Shown piece after piece: positions 15,367-41,028 of a DNA stretch of 41,028 nt. The position numbers and the translations under genes are program-made. The notes under the pieces are model-generated. The model worked only from the letters and a program-made list of their open reading frames with translations. It was not told the DNA's origin and searched no databases. Each line of letters starts with the position of its first letter. Positions within the stretch are counted from its first letter, which is position 1. The stretch comes from a virus, in IMG/VR virus record IMGVR_UViG_3300046450_001024, positions 1-41,028 of that record; one strand, written 5' to 3'.

Positions 15367-15684
15367 ATGGCAAACAACAAAGATATTATTGATGAGTTTT
15401 TAGATATTGTTTGGGCTGAATCAGAAGCAAGATGGGGAGAAAATTTTACAGTTAAAGATTTAGTTTACCATCTTATTGAAAATGGTATAATACCTCCTAA
15501 AGCATTAAGAAATTATATGATGTTTAATGATTTTGATAAATTTATTGTAAACAATGAAGGTCATATAGGAAATACTTTTATTGATATATCTATAAGACAT
15601 GGCATAACTGAAAAACAATGCCGAAACATAATATATAAACAAAGATATAAAACATCTAAAGATTATAATATTATGAGAGAGTAA
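15367..15684 (+). CDS. Hypothetical protein, end of tail operon
   Basis: A 105-residue protein, mixed helix and strand, starting MANNKDIIDEFLDIVW. The centre (SEARWGENFTVKDLVYHLIENGIIPPKALRNYM) could form a small helical or HTH-like fold, but no family is recognised. Its last 14 bases overlap the end of the convergent RusA gene, and no terminator separates them, so tail and replication transcripts meet here. Confidence 0.65.
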   Translation: MANNKDIIDEFLDIVWAESEARWGENFTVKDLVYHLIENGIIPPKALRNYMMFNDFDKFIVNNEGHIGNTFIDISIRHGITEKQCRNIIYKQRYKTSKDYNIMRE

Positions 15685-16977: not shown

Positions 16978-17203
16978 ATTGACCTTCTATTTTTATATTT
17001 ATAATTTTAATTTGAACCTCTCCTTCTTTTTTGCCTATTTGCCTAAATAATTTAGATTTTATATGATTAAATACTTCATCTTTATCTTTAGATAAAGCAA
17101 AAGTATCTATAAATCCATTTTTTATTTGTGTTCTTATGTAGTTACTTCTGCTATTATTTCTATATTCAAAATCAACTTGCACTCTATAAATTGGCTTTTT
17201 CAT
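16958..17203 (-). CDS. Hypothetical small protein
   Basis: An 81-residue protein with alternating polar and hydrophobic residues (MKKPIYRVQVDFEYRNNSRS, then VQIKIINIKIEGQYG), probably a small beta-sheet fold. Its end overlaps the DUF3310 start by 20 bases. No recognised family. Part of the replication operon. Confidence 0.6.
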   Translation of the reverse strand: MKKPIYRVQVDFEYRNNSRSNYIRTQIKNGFIDTFALSKDKDEVFNHIKSKLFRQIGKKEGEVQIKIINIKIEGQYGETNR

Positions 17204-20184: not shown

Positions 20185-20817
20185 TTAAAATACCATATTA
20201 TTAAATTTACCACCTGTAAAACCCTCTTTTAAATCATTATTAATCTCATCATCCCAACACTCTTGATTTAACCAAGTGCTTGGATGTTTTTTAAACTTAA
20301 CATCTTTAACAGATGCAGTATATTCTTTTGCAGCAACAACACATTTTTTACAAATGTTTAAATTTAATTTAATAAACTTATCATAACATAACTTTCTGCT
20401 TTTCTTGACATTATAAGCTTCCCAAAACTCATTAAATAACAATATCTTTTCATTCTTAGTATTATCCTTAACATTTTTGCGGAGGGGGGTGTCGCATTTT
20501 TGTGGAGGGGGTGAAGATATAGATTTTGGTATTTTTTGAGTTAAAGAAATAACTCTCTGATCTACATTTTTAACATCATCTTTTATTAAATATATTTTAA
20601 TAAATTTATGTAATGATAAATTCGCTAAATTTCTACTAATGCTCTTAGGGTTTCTATCAAATAATTTACCGAAGTAAGCATTAGATGCCCAGCAATAGCC
20701 TTTATAGTTCGTTAGGCAGGTTATTTCTGCATAAAGCAATCTTTCCATAGGACATAACTTTTTACTGTATCTAACATCTGATGGAATAATTGCGTAATAG
20801 TTTGGTTTTTCGTTCAT
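20185..20817 (-). CDS. Replication initiator with N-terminal HTH
   Basis: A 210-residue protein. Residues about 10-95 (from PSDVRYSKKLCPMERLLYAEI through SNAYFGKLFDRNPKSISRNLANL) form a winged helix-turn-helix of the HTH_36 type used by phage replication initiators. The C-terminal part (FNEFWEAYNVKKSRKLCYDKF, then HPSTWLNQECWDDEI) is the tail common to replisome organisers that contact the helicase. It would bind the phage origin and load the adjacent primase-helicase. It is preceded by a structured RNA ending in U7 and an ACTAACAAAACAAAAC leader, so it may be regulated by attenuation. Confidence 0.8.
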   Translation of the reverse strand: MNEKPNYYAIIPSDVRYSKKLCPMERLLYAEITCLTNYKGYCWASNAYFGKLFDRNPKSISRNLANLSLHKFIKIYLIKDDVKNVDQRVISLTQKIPKSISSPPPQKCDTPLRKNVKDNTKNEKILLFNEFWEAYNVKKSRKLCYDKFIKLNLNICKKCVVAAKEYTASVKDVKFKKHPSTWLNQECWDDEINNDLKEGFTGGKFNNMVF

Positions 20818-21265: not shown

Positions 21266-21655
21266 TTACAATAAATCTACTTTTATAGATTCTATTGATG
21301 TTTGAAGTTCTCTTATCTGTCTAGCCATAGCTTGTACTTTAGCTTTCCTATATCCTGTGTTATATTCATCAAGAACACTTTGATAAAACTCTCTATATTC
21401 CTCATAGTATTTCATATTCCATTCATGATCAGTAACATATTTTAATATAGTTGCGTGATGCCTTCCAACTATTTCAGCTGTTCTTTGAGAAGTACATCCA
21501 TTATCTCTTAAAAAATAACCTAATACACTACGAGCTAAAGCTTTTGGTCTTTTCCTATCTTTACCACTTATTATCTTTCTATCTATTCCAGAAACTAATT
21601 CTACTATCTCAACTATTGCAGACTCTGTACTATTCAACTTTAAATTCTTCATCAC
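21266..21655 (-). CDS. DnaA domain IV-like DNA-binding protein
   Basis: A 129-residue protein. Residues about 34-85 (RKRPKALARSVLGYFLRDNG, then SQRTAEIVGRHHATILKYV) match the DNA-binding domain IV of DnaA, including the G-R-x-H-x-T signature as GRHHAT. The AAA+ ATPase part of DnaA is absent. A C-terminal helix (YRKAKVQAMARQIRELQ) may dimerise. It could bind DnaA-box-like sites to control phage or host replication, or act as a transcription factor. Located in the replication operon upstream of the SSB-like gene. It overlaps the upstream gene end by 26 bases. Confidence 0.8.
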   Translation of the reverse strand: MMKNLKLNSTESAIVEIVELVSGIDRKIISGKDRKRPKALARSVLGYFLRDNGCTSQRTAEIVGRHHATILKYVTDHEWNMKYYEEYREFYQSVLDEYNTGYRKAKVQAMARQIRELQTSIESIKVDLL

Positions 21656-35107: not shown

Positions 35108-35239
35108 ATGGCAAAAAAGAAGAAGCTTAACAGTAAGAATCCTAAATACCTACCAAAAGAAAAAGTTAAAGAATATAAAAAGATAGTTGTCAAGGAGGTA
35201 AAGGGTTGTAAAATAACTTTAATATGGGAAAAAGACTAA
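35108..35239 (+). CDS. Small basic protein
   Basis: A 43-residue Lys-rich peptide (MAKKKKLNSKNPKYLPKEKV). An upstream in-frame start at 35051 would overlap the holin gene, so 35108 is preferred. Its end overlaps the metallophosphoesterase start by 16 bases. Function unknown; it resembles the lysine-rich peptide at 34640. Confidence 0.45.
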   Translation: MAKKKKLNSKNPKYLPKEKVKEYKKIVVKEVKGCKITLIWEKD

Positions 35240-36309
35240 GATTATCAGATAAAGAGGTAGACATAATTTATCAGTATAGAGCTGATGATTTAGAAAACCT
35301 AAACCACAATCTTACACACAATTCAGCATTAGATAATCATTTAATAGATAGAGGAATTGATAAAAAAGATGTGGTTTCAGTAAAGCATTGGCAAAATATG
35401 GGAGGAGAATTGAGATTTTCCGTAGTAACCAAAAATGCCCTAATAGATGAAAAAAGTGTTTTCAATAATGTTTTAAAACTTATAGAAGAAAATGCTCCTG
35501 AATATAAAAAAATTAAGCATAAAGACGGAACTCATCTATTAGTTATAAATCCAGCAGATGTCCATATAGGGAAATATGCAAACAAAAAGGAAACAGGCGA
35601 AGATTATAACATAGAAATAGCCATAAATAGAGTTTTAATGGGTGTTAGTGGACTTATAAATAAAGCTAAAGGTTTTGATGTGGATAGAGTGTTATTTTGC
35701 ATTGGCAACGATATTTTACATACAGATAATGTAATGTCATCAACAAGCAAAGGAACATACCAAGATACAGATGGTAAATGGTGGGAGCATTATGAAATTG
35801 CATTAAAAGTTTATGTTCAATGCGTAGAGATGTTAAGAGAAATTGCTCCTGTAGACTGTGTTCATTCAATGAGTAATCACGATTTTATGAGTGGATTTCA
35901 CCTGGCACACGCATTAAAAAGTTGGTTTAGAAATACAAATGATGTTACTGTTGATTGTGGTGTTTCTTCTCGTAAATATTATATATATGGTAGCAACTTA
36001 ATAGGACTAGAACATGGAGATGGTGCAAAAATGGATAAATTACCTCTTTTAATGGCATCTGAAAAACCTCAAGAATGGGCTAAAACCACTCATAGATATT
36101 GGTATTTACACCATTTACATCATAAGATTAAACATAAATGGTTAGATGCTAAAGATTATATTGGTGTTAGTGTGGAATATATGCGAAGCCCTAGTGCTAG
36201 TGATTCCTGGCACTCAGGAAAAGGATTTTGTGGTGTTCCAAAAGCTATTGAAGGTTATCTTCACGATAAAGATAGTGGTCAGGTAGCAAGATTTGTTCAT
36301 TATTTTTAA
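35224..36309 (+). CDS. Calcineurin-like metallophosphoesterase
   Basis: A 361-residue hydrolase. Metal-binding motifs in order: ADVHIG (Asp112, His114), GND (161-163), SNHD (217-220), EHGD (263-266) and LHHLHHK (295-301). This is the full calcineurin-type phosphoesterase set. The N-terminal ~90 residues form an extra domain starting RLSDKEVDIIYQYRADDLEN that looks like a small helical/HTH unit. It closes the lysis operon, followed by a terminator at 36442. Its substrate is unknown; nucleic acid, nucleotide or signalling phosphoesters are all possible. The late-operon location is unusual for a nuclease. Confidence 0.82.
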   Translation: MGKRLRLSDKEVDIIYQYRADDLENLNHNLTHNSALDNHLIDRGIDKKDVVSVKHWQNMGGELRFSVVTKNALIDEKSVFNNVLKLIEENAPEYKKIKHKDGTHLLVINPADVHIGKYANKKETGEDYNIEIAINRVLMGVSGLINKAKGFDVDRVLFCIGNDILHTDNVMSSTSKGTYQDTDGKWWEHYEIALKVYVQCVEMLREIAPVDCVHSMSNHDFMSGFHLAHALKSWFRNTNDVTVDCGVSSRKYYIYGSNLIGLEHGDGAKMDKLPLLMASEKPQEWAKTTHRYWYLHHLHHKIKHKWLDAKDYIGVSVEYMRSPSASDSWHSGKGFCGVPKAIEGYLHDKDSGQVARFVHYF

Positions 36310-36389
36310 ATATACGCTTAAATTTGCTTTTAGTTACTAAATTTCTTGGAAAAAAGCTTATTGTTTTAAAAAATTGTTGTTATATTGTA

Positions 36390-36466
36390 TTGTTTTGTTG
36401 AACATAGTGTTTCGCACTATAACTTGTTAGGAAATGATTAAGGGGAGCTTCGGCTCTCCTTTTTTT
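36390..36466 (+). ncRNA. Candidate small RNA
   Basis: A possible 77-base transcript starting after the GTTATATTGTA box (36379-36389). It holds hairpin ATAGTG-TTTCG-CACTAT (36404-36420), an unpaired AACTTGTTAGGAAATGATTA, and the terminator hairpin with UUCG loop (36442-36459) plus T7. No ORF. It may instead be only the 3' end of the lysis operon transcript; the promoter lacks the TTCCA box found elsewhere. Confidence 0.35.
36442..36466 (+). terminator. Intrinsic terminator ending lysis operon
   Basis: Stem GGGGAGC (36442-36448) / GCTCTCC (36453-36459) with one G-T pair and a stable TTCG tetraloop, followed by seven T (36460-36466). Confidence 0.9.
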
Positions 36467-36469
36467 GTC

Positions 36470-36593
36470 CAGGATTAATCACTGATCGGTTTGTAACACT
36501 TATTTTATGTCTTGTTTTATCTCCAATAAACTGGACAGACTTCATCAAAATGTACGCTAATATTTCTCTTTATCAGGATTAATCACCGATCGG
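36470..36593. repeat. 20-bp palindrome-bearing direct repeat pair
   Basis: CAGGATTAATCACTGATCGG at 36470-36489 and CAGGATTAATCACCGATCGG at 36574-36593, one mismatch, 104 bases apart. Each contains the palindrome GATTAATC, and the second also CCGATCGG. This is the form expected of an operator bound by a dimeric regulator. No identical copy was noticed elsewhere. Confidence 0.75.
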
Positions 36594-36682
36594 ATTAAAA
36601 GTACGCTAATTCCTCTCTTTATAGTAAAAGTACGCTAACATTACTCTTTATAGTAAAAATACGATATGCTCTCTCTTAGGGC
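36552..36682 (+). repeat. GTACGCT repeat array (iteron-like), left
   Basis: GTACGCTAA occurs at 36552, 36601 and 36630, with a degenerate form ATACGATAT at 36659. Each is followed four to five bases later by CTCTTTAT or CTCTCTTA. The last three units have a 29-base period and share TATAGTAAAA between them. The core reappears at 38978-38984 and 39013-39020. Such arrays serve as replication iterons or as cooperative operator sites. Confidence 0.75.
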
Positions 36683-36815
36683 ATCACTATTACTCACAAC
36701 AATACAATAAGAGTATAATTTCAATGTTTTTACCTCTATAAATTATGTTGGATATAATTTGCATATCTAAAAAAGTATTCGTTATATGATTCTATAACTA
36801 ACAAACAAAAACAAA

Positions 36816-38336
36816 ATGAAAAACTTTAATGATTTTATAGCTACAAGAAAACAAATGACTCCTAAAGAGTTTAACGAAATGAACAATGATAATATATTAG
36901 AAGATGTATGTTCTAAAGAATGTCCTTATATATATGTATATAAAGATTTCTATTATATTCAAATAGGTTTAAGTGGTTTTGGATTAGTAATAGGCAATCA
37001 ATATTATGAAAGCGAATACTTAGAAGAGATGGAAATTAAACTATATAATGATTGGTTTATAGATAATCTTGAGGGTGTTGATGAATGGTTGCCTTATATT
37101 GGAATACACTCGCAAAAGTCTAGTGCATTATATTCTATTATGTTTCGTGATATGGGGTTTGATATAGAGGATGTTTCTTATCGTAATGATAGTGTAGATA
37201 GTTTAAGACTATCTATTGGTAGTTTAGAGTTATTTGATGTGCTACTACCTAATAGTGCTACAAATGATAATGATAAAGAGAAGTTTAACACATTTTGTGT
37301 TTTTCCTTTAGAAAAATCTCTTGATGTAGATGAGTTTGAAAGATGTGAAGATAATATTGATGGTTTGATTTATGATAATGTTATGGAGATGCAAGAGTCT
37401 TTTGAATGGAGATTTCATCAATTAGCAAAAGATTATATGAATAGAGTTCTTGGTTTAAATAATGAATGTGATTTTGAAAATGGAGATTATGAGCCTAATA
37501 CTTTAGAAGATTTTATGAGTGATGAAAGTGGTAGTGGTGTTTGGTATAAATTTCCAAAGAGCATAACATTAAGAAAGGCTCTTAATTTTGAAAATAGTGT
37601 AGAGTTTATGACAAAAGTAAAAAATGAGGGATATGATATATTAAGAATTTGGGAACACTTTAAATTCTTAAAAAAGTATATGGAATTTGGATGTGAGCCT
37701 ATAAATATGTTTGAAGATAGTGAGGTTGATGATAGGGAATCTAGAGTAAAAGCTAGTTTTGAAAAGGCAAAGGTATTAATTGAAAAAAATATTTCAAATG
37801 GTAAAATACCTCTAGATACTAAATACTTAGATTTTGTTGAGATAGGAGAATATTTTGATAGTAGTGAATTAACAAGTGATTTTCATAATGATGTGGATGG
37901 TGCAAGTGATTTAGTAGATTTAATAAACGATTACTTAGAGTTTGATTGTAGTATAACTTTTAGCCCTAAACATTACGATAACATTAAGCTTAAAAAAAGG
38001 ATAGTAGAGCTAGAGAAATTACAAAGTAGTATAGAGGATGAGGATTATAAAGATTTGCTTAAAAATAGAGATTACTATAAGCAAAAATATAATGAAGTTT
38101 TAGATGTATTTCCTAATAGAGATTACTATAAGCAAAAATATAATGAACTTAAAGATGTATTTCCTACTCAATCTCATCCTATGTTAATATTGGCTTTAGA
38201 ATCACTTTTGTATGAGTATGAGGGATTTGAGGAGCATAGAGCTATTGCGAATACTAAAAGAGATATAATCAATACCACTAAGATTAAATCACAAATAGAA
38301 AAAATAGAAAAAATTATACTAAATAAAACTAAATAA
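36816..38336 (+). CDS. Large acidic protein of unknown function
   Basis: A 506-residue acidic protein with no recognised domain. It is aromatic and Asp/Asn/Glu-rich in the first 250 residues (FYYIQIGLSGFGLVIGNQYY, then NDWFIDNLEGVDEWLPYIGI), then helical. Residues 417-433 and 434-450 are a perfect-length tandem repeat (NRDYYKQKYNEVLDVFP / NRDYYKQKYNELKDVFP), coded by a 51-base duplication (38064-38114, 38115-38165). A strong ACTAACAAACAAAAACAAA leader precedes the ATG. It heads the right-end operon behind a repeat-rich control region. Likely an early-expressed, possibly host-directed protein; this is positional inference. Confidence 0.7.
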   Translation: MKNFNDFIATRKQMTPKEFNEMNNDNILEDVCSKECPYIYVYKDFYYIQIGLSGFGLVIGNQYYESEYLEEMEIKLYNDWFIDNLEGVDEWLPYIGIHSQKSSALYSIMFRDMGFDIEDVSYRNDSVDSLRLSIGSLELFDVLLPNSATNDNDKEKFNTFCVFPLEKSLDVDEFERCEDNIDGLIYDNVMEMQESFEWRFHQLAKDYMNRVLGLNNECDFENGDYEPNTLEDFMSDESGSGVWYKFPKSITLRKALNFENSVEFMTKVKNEGYDILRIWEHFKFLKKYMEFGCEPINMFEDSEVDDRESRVKASFEKAKVLIEKNISNGKIPLDTKYLDFVEIGEYFDSSELTSDFHNDVDGASDLVDLINDYLEFDCSITFSPKHYDNIKLKKRIVELEKLQSSIEDEDYKDLLKNRDYYKQKYNEVLDVFPNRDYYKQKYNELKDVFPTQSHPMLILALESLLYEYEGFEEHRAIANTKRDIINTTKIKSQIEKIEKIILNKTK

Positions 38337-38337
38337 A

Positions 38338-38619
38338 ATGAAAGACTATAAACAAGTAAAAATTCAACAAAGGGTAACTATGCACAAATATGTAGAAGTG
38401 TTCGTAAACGTGCCTAAAAGCGTTAATGAGTATGATGTTGAGGAATGGATGTGGGATAATCAAAAGGATGTTATAAGTGATAAAATAAATAATGCTTTTG
38501 ATAAGAAAGAGTTTGAAAGTGGTAGTGGATATTATGACTATGAGGGCTTAGAGGAGTGTGAGGATATAGAAACAAGATTTCAAGTAGGAGATTATGGAGG
38601 ACATACTTATTGTTATTAA
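38338..38619 (+). CDS. Hypothetical small acidic protein
   Basis: A 93-residue protein with a beta-like N-terminus (KQVKIQQRVTMHKYVEVFVN), a helical centre and an acidic, aromatic C-terminus (GYYDYEGLEECEDIETRF, then GDYGGHTYCY). It starts one base after the 506-residue gene stop. The fold may resemble small stress or regulatory proteins, but nothing specific is recognised. Confidence 0.65.
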   Translation: MKDYKQVKIQQRVTMHKYVEVFVNVPKSVNEYDVEEWMWDNQKDVISDKINNAFDKKEFESGSGYYDYEGLEECEDIETRFQVGDYGGHTYCY

Positions 38620-38634
38620 CTTAAATATTATAAA

Positions 38635-38850
38635 ATGAAAATAGAAAAAACATATATGGATAATAGTAGATTTTTAGAGATGCTTGATAAATTTACTATA
38701 AGCACTATTAAGGCACAATTTAACAACAATCTATACAATGACTATGGAGATATGCACCAAGAGGTAGAAGATGCTTATATCACGCTATATGATGCTAATG
38801 AAACAATAGCTCATAGTTTAGGGTTACACTCATCTTACGATAAAGATTAA
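38635..38850 (+). CDS. Hypothetical small helical protein
   Basis: A 71-residue, probably all-helical protein (MKIEKTYMDNSRFLEMLDKF, then DANETIAHSLGLHSS). It is the last gene before a terminator at 38943. No recognised family. Confidence 0.6.
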   Translation: MKIEKTYMDNSRFLEMLDKFTISTIKAQFNNNLYNDYGDMHQEVEDAYITLYDANETIAHSLGLHSSYDKD

Positions 38851-38942
38851 TGGTGTATCTTTGGATAGTGATATTCATCCTAGCTTTTTTAAGGATTGTA
38901 GAGTAATAATACTCACTTAAAATAAAATTTTATGTTAAATAT

Positions 38943-38966
38943 ACCCCTAGAAATAGGGGTTTTTTT
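38943..38966 (+). terminator. Intrinsic terminator
   Basis: Stem ACCCCTA (38943-38949) / TAGGGGT (38954-38960), GAAA tetraloop, T7 (38960-38966). It ends the 36816-38850 unit. Confidence 0.9.
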
Positions 38967-38969
38967 ATG

Positions 38970-39037
38970 CTTAAAAGTACGCTTGATTTTCTATTTACAA
39001 GTGGACTTAAAAGTACGCTTGATTTTCTATTTACAAG
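38970..39037 (+). repeat. Perfect 32-bp direct repeat pair with GTACGCT core
   Basis: Two identical 32-base units at 38970-39001 and 39006-39037, separated by TGGA. Each contains CTTAAAAGTACGCTTG followed by ATTTTCTATTTACAAG. AAAAGTACGCT is shared with the array at 36597-36640, and CTNTTTA follows the core at a similar distance in both arrays. Confidence 0.9.
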
Positions 39038-39236: not shown

Positions 39237-40286
39237 ATGAAAATAGTACAACAAAACACAAGCGAAGTATATCACCTATTTGCAAATCAAATACAAAGCA
39301 ATGCAACTAATCAAACTAGAACTTTATATTTTAAAGAAAAAGAACTTTATTCTTTTGGCTCACATTATAAACTAGCTCAATATCTAAAAGGGGGTGCAAT
39401 TCTTATAAATAATGATGGTTATAGTGTAACAACATCTAAGCACATTTCTAGTATAGTACAAGCATCACAACACAAAAACCAATTTTTGACTCAAGATGTA
39501 ATTCTAGAGGATGCTCTTTCTAGGGTTGAGGATTTGGCTAAAAAATTTGTAAGAGCTAGACAAAACAAAGAGTATCTATATAATACTATTTTATCAATAC
39601 AAAGCGAGTTTTTAAGGTTTCAAGATTATTTAAATCTACATAAGATAGACTCCATTAGAATGAATTACGATACACCAAAAAAAGTAAAAGTAGATAAGAG
39701 AGATAAATCATATAAGAGATTTATTCATTTAGTAACAACTTTTGAGAGTAAAAACTTTAAAATAGAGGTTATGGAAACAATGATAAAGTTACAAGAGCAA
39801 AAGAAGGCAAAACAACTTTTAGATAGTGATAAATTTTATAATAATAAAAAAGATTGGGTTAGGGGTTTAAACTTTGATTTACTACGTTTAGATTGTGAGA
39901 TAGGCACTCAATACAATATTTACGAATATAGCGTGAAAACCTCTCAAAATGTCGTTGTTAAGGTTGATAAGGTAGTTGAAATAATTGATGCACTAGTTTA
40001 CTTTGAATGGAACAACGAAAAAGCAAATCAAATCTTTGCAAATAAAAAAATTGGTTATTATACGATTAATAAGGTTGCAAATGATGTTTTTTATATTGGA
40101 TGTCATAAAATAACTTTTAAAGAGATTAAAAAGTTAATGGATACAATTAATGAAGAATACCAACTTTGCAAAGAAAATAATACAAGCACTAACTTGCATT
40201 ATAATGTGAGAACAAAGCAAGAGCAAGATAATCAAGATAACACAAATAAAAATTTTGATGTTAAATCTTGTGCATTTACTAACTAA
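39237..40286 (+). CDS. Unknown protein with phage/plasmid Y-S-x-G-x-H domain
   Basis: A 349-residue protein. The ATG at 39237 is preferred over 39213 because the ACTAACAAAAAGAAA leader, like those of 36816 and 40314, directly precedes it. The first ~80 residues (TRTLYFKEKELYSFGSHYKL, AQYLKGGAILINNDGYSVTT, SKHISSIVQA) resemble a domain in many phage and plasmid proteins of unknown role, with conserved Y-S-x-G-x-H and Y-S-x-T-T-x-x-H. The rest is Lys/Asn/Glu-rich and helical. It may bind nucleic acid; that is inference. Confidence 0.65.
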   Translation: MKIVQQNTSEVYHLFANQIQSNATNQTRTLYFKEKELYSFGSHYKLAQYLKGGAILINNDGYSVTTSKHISSIVQASQHKNQFLTQDVILEDALSRVEDLAKKFVRARQNKEYLYNTILSIQSEFLRFQDYLNLHKIDSIRMNYDTPKKVKVDKRDKSYKRFIHLVTTFESKNFKIEVMETMIKLQEQKKAKQLLDSDKFYNNKKDWVRGLNFDLLRLDCEIGTQYNIYEYSVKTSQNVVVKVDKVVEIIDALVYFEWNNEKANQIFANKKIGYYTINKVANDVFYIGCHKITFKEIKKLMDTINEEYQLCKENNTSTNLHYNVRTKQEQDNQDNTNKNFDVKSCAFTN

Positions 40287-40313: not shown

Positions 40314-40649
40314 ATGAAAATTACTTATAAAATATTATTCAATAGAGATAAGCACAATAACAAAGTGCAATCACAAATATCTAAAATCAAAGACTATTTA
40401 AATAACACGCTTAAGCACTCAAATCACCCCTATTTTATTGACATAGGGTTTGTGGGTGGTAGTGGGTGTGAGGATGAACAAACCTCTTTTAATCTTACTT
40501 TATATATAGCTAATGATTTAGATGCTAGGATGTCCTTAAATGATGTTATCTTATCTACCTTTAAAGGGTTGCAAATATATATCTTTGAGAATGATTCACC
40601 CCCTTACTTGTTCCCTCCAATAGCTATATTTGCTAAGCCTAGCTCTTAG
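40314..40649 (+). CDS. Hypothetical protein, last gene
   Basis: A 111-residue alpha/beta protein (MKITYKILFNRDKHNNKVQS) with a Gly/Ser-rich turn (GFVGGSGCEDEQTSF) and a hydrophobic, Pro-rich C-terminus (SPPYLFPPIAIFAKPSS). Preceded by the repeated A-rich leader (40292-40313) and followed by tandem terminators. No recognised family. Confidence 0.6.
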   Translation: MKITYKILFNRDKHNNKVQSQISKIKDYLNNTLKHSNHPYFIDIGFVGGSGCEDEQTSFNLTLYIANDLDARMSLNDVILSTFKGLQIYIFENDSPPYLFPPIAIFAKPSS

Positions 40650-40670
40650 TATATAGCGAACACATCAAAG

Positions 40671-40697
40671 CCCTCCAATCTATTGGGGGGTTTTTTT
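40671..40697 (+). terminator. Intrinsic terminator
   Basis: CCCTCCAAT (40671-40679) pairs with ATTGGGGGG (40682-40690), one T-G pair, followed by T7 (40691-40697). Confidence 0.85.
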
Positions 40698-40721
40698 ATG
40701 GCTTAATTTCAAGCCCTCTAG

Positions 40722-40752
40722 CCCTCCATCATAATGGGGGGTTTGTTTGTTT
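40722..40752 (+). terminator. Second, duplicated terminator
   Basis: CCCTCCAT (40722-40729) pairs with ATGGGGGG (40734-40741), followed by a T-rich GTTTGTTTGTTTA-type tail. Its sequence resembles the preceding terminator, suggesting duplication. Confidence 0.7.
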
Positions 40753-40823
40753 ATGCTTACCTAGTAAATCACGAATTTGGGCAATACCTGTTTTTTATAT
40801 ATCAACGTCAAGCATCAAGACTA

Positions 40824-40853
40824 AAAGCCTTTAAAGGGGTTTAAATGGGCTTT
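40824..40853. other. Bulged hairpin next to genome junction
   Basis: AAAGCC-TTTAAA (40824-40835), loop GGGG, TTTAAA (40840-40845), bulge TG, GGCTTT (40848-40853). Twelve base pairs. It lies at the border of the G/T-rich junction tract and could be a packaging, replication or termination structure. Confidence 0.6.
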
Positions 40854-40883
40854 GTCTTGTGTGTTGTGTTGTGGGGTTGTTTG

Positions 40884-41028
40884 TGTGGTGGTGTGTGTTC
40901 TTGTGGTGCTTGGTGTGGTGCTATGGTGTGTGGTTTAGTGTGTGATTATTGGCTCAATTTGGGTTGTCTTATTGGCTCAATTTGGGGGTGTGTTTGTGTG
41001 TGTGTGGGGTGTGTGTTTTATATCATTT
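40884..41028. repeat. Terminal direct repeat, right copy
   Basis: This is the right-hand copy of the 145-base sequence at 1-145, identical except for T at 41010 (G at 127). It ends just before the G8 run that follows the left copy. Together the two copies show that the window closes on itself. Confidence 0.93.

Follow-up and report, generated by a model that had tools for sequence, protein, structure and literature searches.

Right-end repeat clusters with lineage-specific cores in a group of uncultured phages, and a DnaA domain IV-like protein as their candidate reader

The right end of the window and its repeat units

The stretch of DNA analysed here, called the window (G000 among the genomes below), is the whole 41,028-base virus record IMGVR_UViG_3300046450_001024, and positions are given on its + strand. 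The structural genes point rightward and a replication operon (23680 to 15671) points leftward, with small ORFans at the right end. Among cultured phages, Flavobacterium phage 11b has the nearest terminase (52% identical), which makes a Flavobacteriia host likely for this marine phage. A nucleotide search against cultured phages returned no match to the window, an Rfam search found nothing (best E 0.68), and no integrase or lysogeny genes were recognised in this phage. The record ends (40601-41028 and 1-512) are GT-rich and repeat-rich, and the first 40 bases recur at 40884; a similar GT-rich stretch is found in the relative L006, and the record-end stretch is possibly related to packaging or to the ends themselves. 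The right end contains the following features:

35224-36309: phosphoesterase gene before the left array
36307-36335, + strand: weak unit 0, starting with the stop codon of the phosphoesterase gene
36380-36466, + strand: putative short non-coding RNA, located after unit 0 and before the left array, with a -7-like TTATATTG, a hairpin (36404-36420) and a terminator (36440-36466)
36547-36575, + strand: left array unit 1, AAAATGTACGCTAATATTTCTCTTTATCA
36596-36624, + strand: left array unit 2
36625-36653, + strand: left array unit 3
36654-36682, + strand: degenerate fourth left copy, TAAAAATACGATATGCTCTCTCTTAG..., assigned by eye; the tandem repeat reaches 36677
36782-36788, + strand: TTATATG, putative host-type -7 element for the 36816 operon
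36816-38336, + strand: 506-residue ORFan between the two arrays
38943-38966, + strand: intrinsic terminator ACCCCTAGAAATAGGGGTTTTTTT, immediately upstream of the right array, called from sequence; relatives are arranged likewise
38972-39000, + strand: right array unit 1
39008-39036, + strand: right array unit 2
39237-40286, + strand: gene behind the right array; another gene takes its place in L006 and L008

The earlier note had pointed to a GTACGCT core shared by the intergenic regions on both sides of the 36816 gene, and the count over the window bears this out. The core occurs five times in 41,028 bases, only in those two regions and always on the + strand (36552, 36601, 36630, 38977 and 39013), with no copy inside a gene; 0.39 copies were expected, and none of 100 dinucleotide shuffles reached five. 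The CTNTTTA block, described as lying at a similar distance, follows the core of every one of the five copies at exactly 7 bases, and a scan of the window for both blocks together always gave at least three mismatches elsewhere. The unit can thus be written as AAA[AT]-GTACGCT-N7-CT[CA]TTTA, about 25 bases long. Scored with a matrix derived from the five units, these reach 34-38 bits, which is high by construction, and the rest of the window reaches 10.8 bits or less. On the right, two identical 32-base copies were confirmed, 36 bases apart. On the left, the expected three to four units were found as three good ones and a degenerate fourth, but the uniform 29-base period did not hold, as the intervals between starts measure 49 and 29 bases. 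In the 400 bases that follow the phosphoesterase gene, 8-mer repetition exceeded that of all 500 shuffles. A coding function of the units (ATG TAC GCT and so on) was considered and dropped, there being no codon pattern.

The TTATATG element lies about 130 bases after the left array and is kept in relatives; its assignment as a host-type promoter element is drawn from the Bacteroidetes promoter consensus. The 506-residue ORFan behind it holds a 51-base in-frame tandem duplication (38064-38166). In the candidate short transcript, the start from TTATATTG to GTTTTG is constant, the hairpin differs in sequence between phages with its stem kept, and the terminator follows. The whole candidate folds at z -3.6 in the window, partly driven by the terminator, and the hairpins alone mostly lack individual significance. 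From the phosphoesterase end to TTATATTG, the offsets in relatives are 32, 43-44, 53 and 73, close to multiples of 10.5, with 38 as an exception, hinting in a very small sample at helical phasing with unit 0.

Conservation of the clusters and change of their cores among relatives

With the phosphoesterase gene as query we collected 80 relatives, all metagenomic contigs. About 20 contigs keep clusters at homologous sites, and the cores differ by lineage: GTACGCT, GTACGGT, GGTAACA, GGTAGCA, GGCCTGA, GCACCTG and GAACGCT. Close to the window, the right arrays of L001/L012, L006, L008 and L011 consist of letter-identical units (AAAAGTACGCTTGATTTTCTATTTACAAG twice, 37 apart), the core and spacer of right unit 1 are identical in L001, L006, L008 and L011, and L006, L008 and L011 have a left array at the matching place as well. 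Behind the phosphoesterase gene of other close relatives the cores are:

L118, L119, L127, G023: GGTAACA
L129, L130: GGTAGCA
L121, L132: GTACGGT
L117: GCACCTG and GCACTAT
L134: GAACGCT and GCACGCT
L133: GGCCTGA
L138: GTACG[CG]T

In a test that makes no use of the motif, 8-mer repeats at the left site beat all of 500 shuffles in 12 of 16 loci. We aligned the units of 11 phages by eye, and the resulting conservation table is a description rather than a proof. These phages keep, almost universally, the A/T tract, the G in front of the core and the TTT block (positions A2, A3, G6, T23 and T24, 88-100%). Inside one phage the core agrees at 81-100%, but from phage to phage it changes; the N7 spacer lacks conservation even among the units of a single phage. 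The right half of the unit mirrors the core only in G001 and G017.

One protein acting on both arrays, as the earlier note had proposed, fits these data well. The same core stands at both arrays in the window, in L006, L008 and L011 and in most relatives, and between lineages it changes at both sites. Some genomes carry several cores (two in G006, three in G001), and G001 mixes them. All phages that carry the 36816 gene have cores of the GTACG or GCAC type.

Array sites in the six genomes that were inspected lie on the + strand, and nearly all fall into gaps at the right end, ahead of an operon. Each right-end operon has one cluster, and G002 and G023 have three such clusters. The sites number 3-10 per genome and are bipartite and clustered at the right end. 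Most clusters sit behind a terminator, 100-160 bases upstream of putative host-type promoters, and unit starts within clusters are irregularly spaced, 11 to 49 bases apart. Single units occur as well. Unit 0, very weak in the window, is strong at the phosphoesterase stop codon of G005, G012 and G016, and a unit stands just before the start codon of that gene in G005 and G016. Further single units overlap terminators in G005 and G001 or lie in a leftward operon of G017 (9690) and between late genes in relatives; in G020 they occur where a stop and a start codon meet and also within a gene.

Some other repeats were seen along the way. TAATTGGTAGC occurs four times with an 11-base period in L203 (G002; 17050-17095) and in G023 (39606-39650); these are left half-sites in tandem that lack right halves, and they precede another right-end operon. 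The units described above are absent from more distant phosphoesterase relatives. In 12 of these, AACCCTT stands behind the gene, with 2-3 copies, mostly 11 bases apart, in 11 of the 12; carriers include L162, L165, L156, L164, L175 and L194-L196. The copies come directly after the phosphoesterase stop and are followed by AAAGATAAAG-type repeats and then a canonical Bacteroidetes promoter. DnaA-C-like proteins are also encoded in two genomes of the AACCCTT type, L168 and L157.

Candidate proteins for the core

The genes that come into question as setting the core, or that change with it, are as follows:

15367-15684, + strand: 105-residue protein with a predicted helix-turn-helix (HTH), last in the tail operon, a rival binder
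20185-20817, - strand: HTH_36 replication initiator, excluded as the core-setting factor
21266-21655, - strand: proposed array-binding protein, consisting of a DnaA domain IV on its own and a long C-terminal helix
21630-22160, - strand: partner gene overlapping 21266, changing along with 21266 and the core

Three products had been named as possible binders, those of 20185, 21266 and 39237. The last is not needed: an identical right array precedes an unrelated gene in L006 and L008, and the array is therefore no operator private to 39237. The initiator 20185 is 93-94% identical between phages with different cores, and it can be ruled out as the specificity factor because it is only 53% alike in G002 and G023 despite their shared core. 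This leaves 21266, a DnaA domain IV protein, as the putative binder.

The comparison of G002 with G006, which have different cores, is informative. Their primase (96%), initiator (94%), phosphoesterase (96%) and 22297 (99%) are nearly identical, while in the same operon 21266 falls to 52% and 21630 to 47%. In the close same-core pairs (window-G006 and G002-G023), 21266 and 21630 stand at 74-89%. G002 and G011 share a core, but their 21266 products are only 51% identical overall, with 80% in the HTH. In a Mantel test on the only 8 genomes with both parts, similarity of the 21266 HTH correlated with the core (r=-0.60, p=0.0004), and the initiator, SSB and 22297 were uncorrelated with it. Nevertheless, 21630, the capsid and tail genes and 15367 correlated with the core as well as 21266 or better, as phage modules move in blocks. 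The correlation thus narrows the field but names no single gene, since linked genes correlate too.

The predicted fold of 21266 is that of DnaA domain IV. Its match to PF08299 (Bac_DnaA_C) in the window has E 2.5e-6 and 27.9 bits, just under the cut-off of 31.5, and homologues in G010, G017, L260 and L262 pass the cut-off with 36-51 bits. The predicted model (pLDDT 90) matches the DnaA DNA-binding domain structures 3pvp and 1j1v with Z 15.0 (rmsd 1.7 over 95 residues) and 14.8 and continues in a long C-terminal helix to residue 128. No AAA+ ATPase domain is present in the 129-residue protein; the model consists of domain IV and one long helix. R34, the counterpart of E. coli DnaA Arg399 in the alignment, is almost unchanged across 15 homologues, and the helix-turn-helix varies among phages. 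In DnaA, the 5' TTA of the box is read by Arg399 in the minor groove and the 3' part by the HTH (PMC5742627). On the structural model, a constant A/T tract beside a changing core is the footprint expected of a domain IV with a changing HTH. The earlier remark that the core is not a recognisable DnaA box is literally right, yet the site is laid out like a DnaA box, only with a different core. A protein search with 21266 against cultured phages gave no match, and a literature search for phage-encoded DnaA-like regulators found none in the collection searched.

Two other candidates were rejected. The terminase small subunit, as a binder, is 93-94% identical across core classes. Promoters of a phage-specific RNA polymerase were rejected because no polymerase gene was found; the 1330-residue protein lacks a DxDxD motif and looks structural.

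Readings of the arrays and their relation to known systems

The arrays could be a replication origin, where 21266 on DnaA-like boxes brings in the 20185 initiator and the primase-helicase. Such an origin would suit the DnaA descent of 21266 and its position in the replication operon beside the initiator and SSB genes. Direct repeats clustered in intergenic DNA recall the iteron origins of phages and plasmids, here in a phage with a replication initiator gene; no iterons were found near that gene, and the units share one genome direction even within a leftward operon of G017. We nevertheless consider an origin unlikely. The protein lacks the AAA+ part, single units lie between late genes and in G020 even inside a gene, and the core is the same although the initiators are only 53% alike. 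An iteron origin split around the 506-residue gene, as the earlier note had suggested, is likewise disfavoured: unlike iteron origins, the clusters are irregularly spaced (11-49 bases), several occur per genome before operons (three, one per operon, in G002 and G023), and the initiator does not co-vary with the core.

A somewhat poorer prospect is that another phage protein reads the sites as an activator, above all 15367. Its identity closely follows the phage lineages and likewise the core (partial r -0.88 for the core), with same-core pairs at 95-96% and most others at 66-72%, but it is located in the tail-gene block, which moves as one. It is predicted as an HTH protein with a possible distant fold resemblance to the Mor/C activators of phage Mu (Z 6.1 to Mu C; Mor match E 0.11), a weak match in the chance range, and its presumed recognition helix EKQCRNIIYKQ is invariant across all phages despite their differing cores. 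We prefer 21266 over 15367 because of its structural fit, set against that invariant helix and the chance-range fold matches.

It is very unlikely that a host regulator sets the core and that phages with different cores infect different hosts. The tail genes, which bear on host range, do change together with the core, but the core changes are too many and too patchy for one conserved host factor, with two cores in G006 and three in G001. Moreover, a scan of 257 Gb of bacterial genomes with the 16 fixed bases of the single-unit pattern gave 101 places, one per contig, about the chance expectation. That the units act as RNA, as hairpins, processing or translational sites, is hardly credible: units spanning stop/start junctions (G020) or just before a start codon (G005, G016) and a possible hairpin in a G001 unit would accord with it, but the arrays fold no better than shuffles (z +0.96 and -0.50) and the variable core has no pairing partner.

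We therefore favour, with moderate confidence, the reading that a DNA-binding protein encoded by the phage, in all likelihood the 21266 product, recognises the arrays, which would be DnaA-like boxes with a private code. The conserved A/T tract (AAAT, AATT or AAAA) would be contacted by the minor-groove arginine of 21266, and the phage-specific core would be read by its helix-turn-helix. The second, more general half (YTTTA) faces the core about 20 bases away, as for a dimer, and the long C-terminal helix probably dimerises. The 21266 product would bind all clusters and act on the right-end operons as a group, as the clusters sit behind terminators upstream of the putative promoters of each operon. 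Most likely it would repress or insulate the right-end operons, which are probably early, after the replication operon with the 21266 gene has been switched on; a repressor or roadblock fits sites behind terminators and at stop/start junctions. The sites, their conservation, the change of core between phages and the co-variation are observed, and the DnaA-like fold is a model prediction; binding, dimerisation, and the sign and timing of regulation are what we infer for 21266 from these. Several points weigh against this reading: linked genes co-vary with the core as well as 21266 does, in a set of 8 genomes; G002 and G011 share a core with rather different 21266 products; the 36816 gene is restricted to two core types; the window protein scores just under the Pfam cut-off; the right half of the unit seldom mirrors the core; and one unit lies in a leftward operon.

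Compared with DnaA and its boxes (TTATCCACA), the 21266 system has the same domain fold, the minor-groove arginine and an A/T tract followed by a core. Unlike DnaA, 21266 has a long C-terminal helix in place of the AAA+ part, and the core is not CCACA and varies from phage to phage. The stoperators of cluster A mycobacteriophages (L5, Bxb1, Trixie) offer another comparison, as their motif diverges with the repressor (PMC6550527, PMC9283540). Like these, the present sites have a phage-specific motif, which may change together with the candidate protein, lie mostly in one orientation, and are in many cases placed in short intergenic gaps (PMC6550527, PMC9283540). Cluster A stoperators, however, are 20-30 dispersed, asymmetric 13-base sites where the bound protein stops transcription elongation in one orientation, as against 3-10 clustered, bipartite sites of about 25 bases here, and in contrast to the two-domain Rep of cluster A the candidate is DnaA domain IV-like.

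More broadly, and only tentatively, we suggest that in a group of Flavobacteriia-type phages the DNA-reading domain of DnaA has become a dimeric transcription regulator with fast-changing, mutually orthogonal boxes, a private code per lineage. Such codes might keep related phages apart, as an incompatibility or immunity barrier. The clusters would mark a conserved control hub at the boundary of structural and right-end genes in an uncultured phage group, with its own code in each lineage. If the proposal is true, DnaA domain IV would have a role beyond replication initiation, that of a rewirable phage regulator, and these phages would provide a natural series of protein/site pairs, with at least seven cores, from which to learn how specificity changes in this fold.
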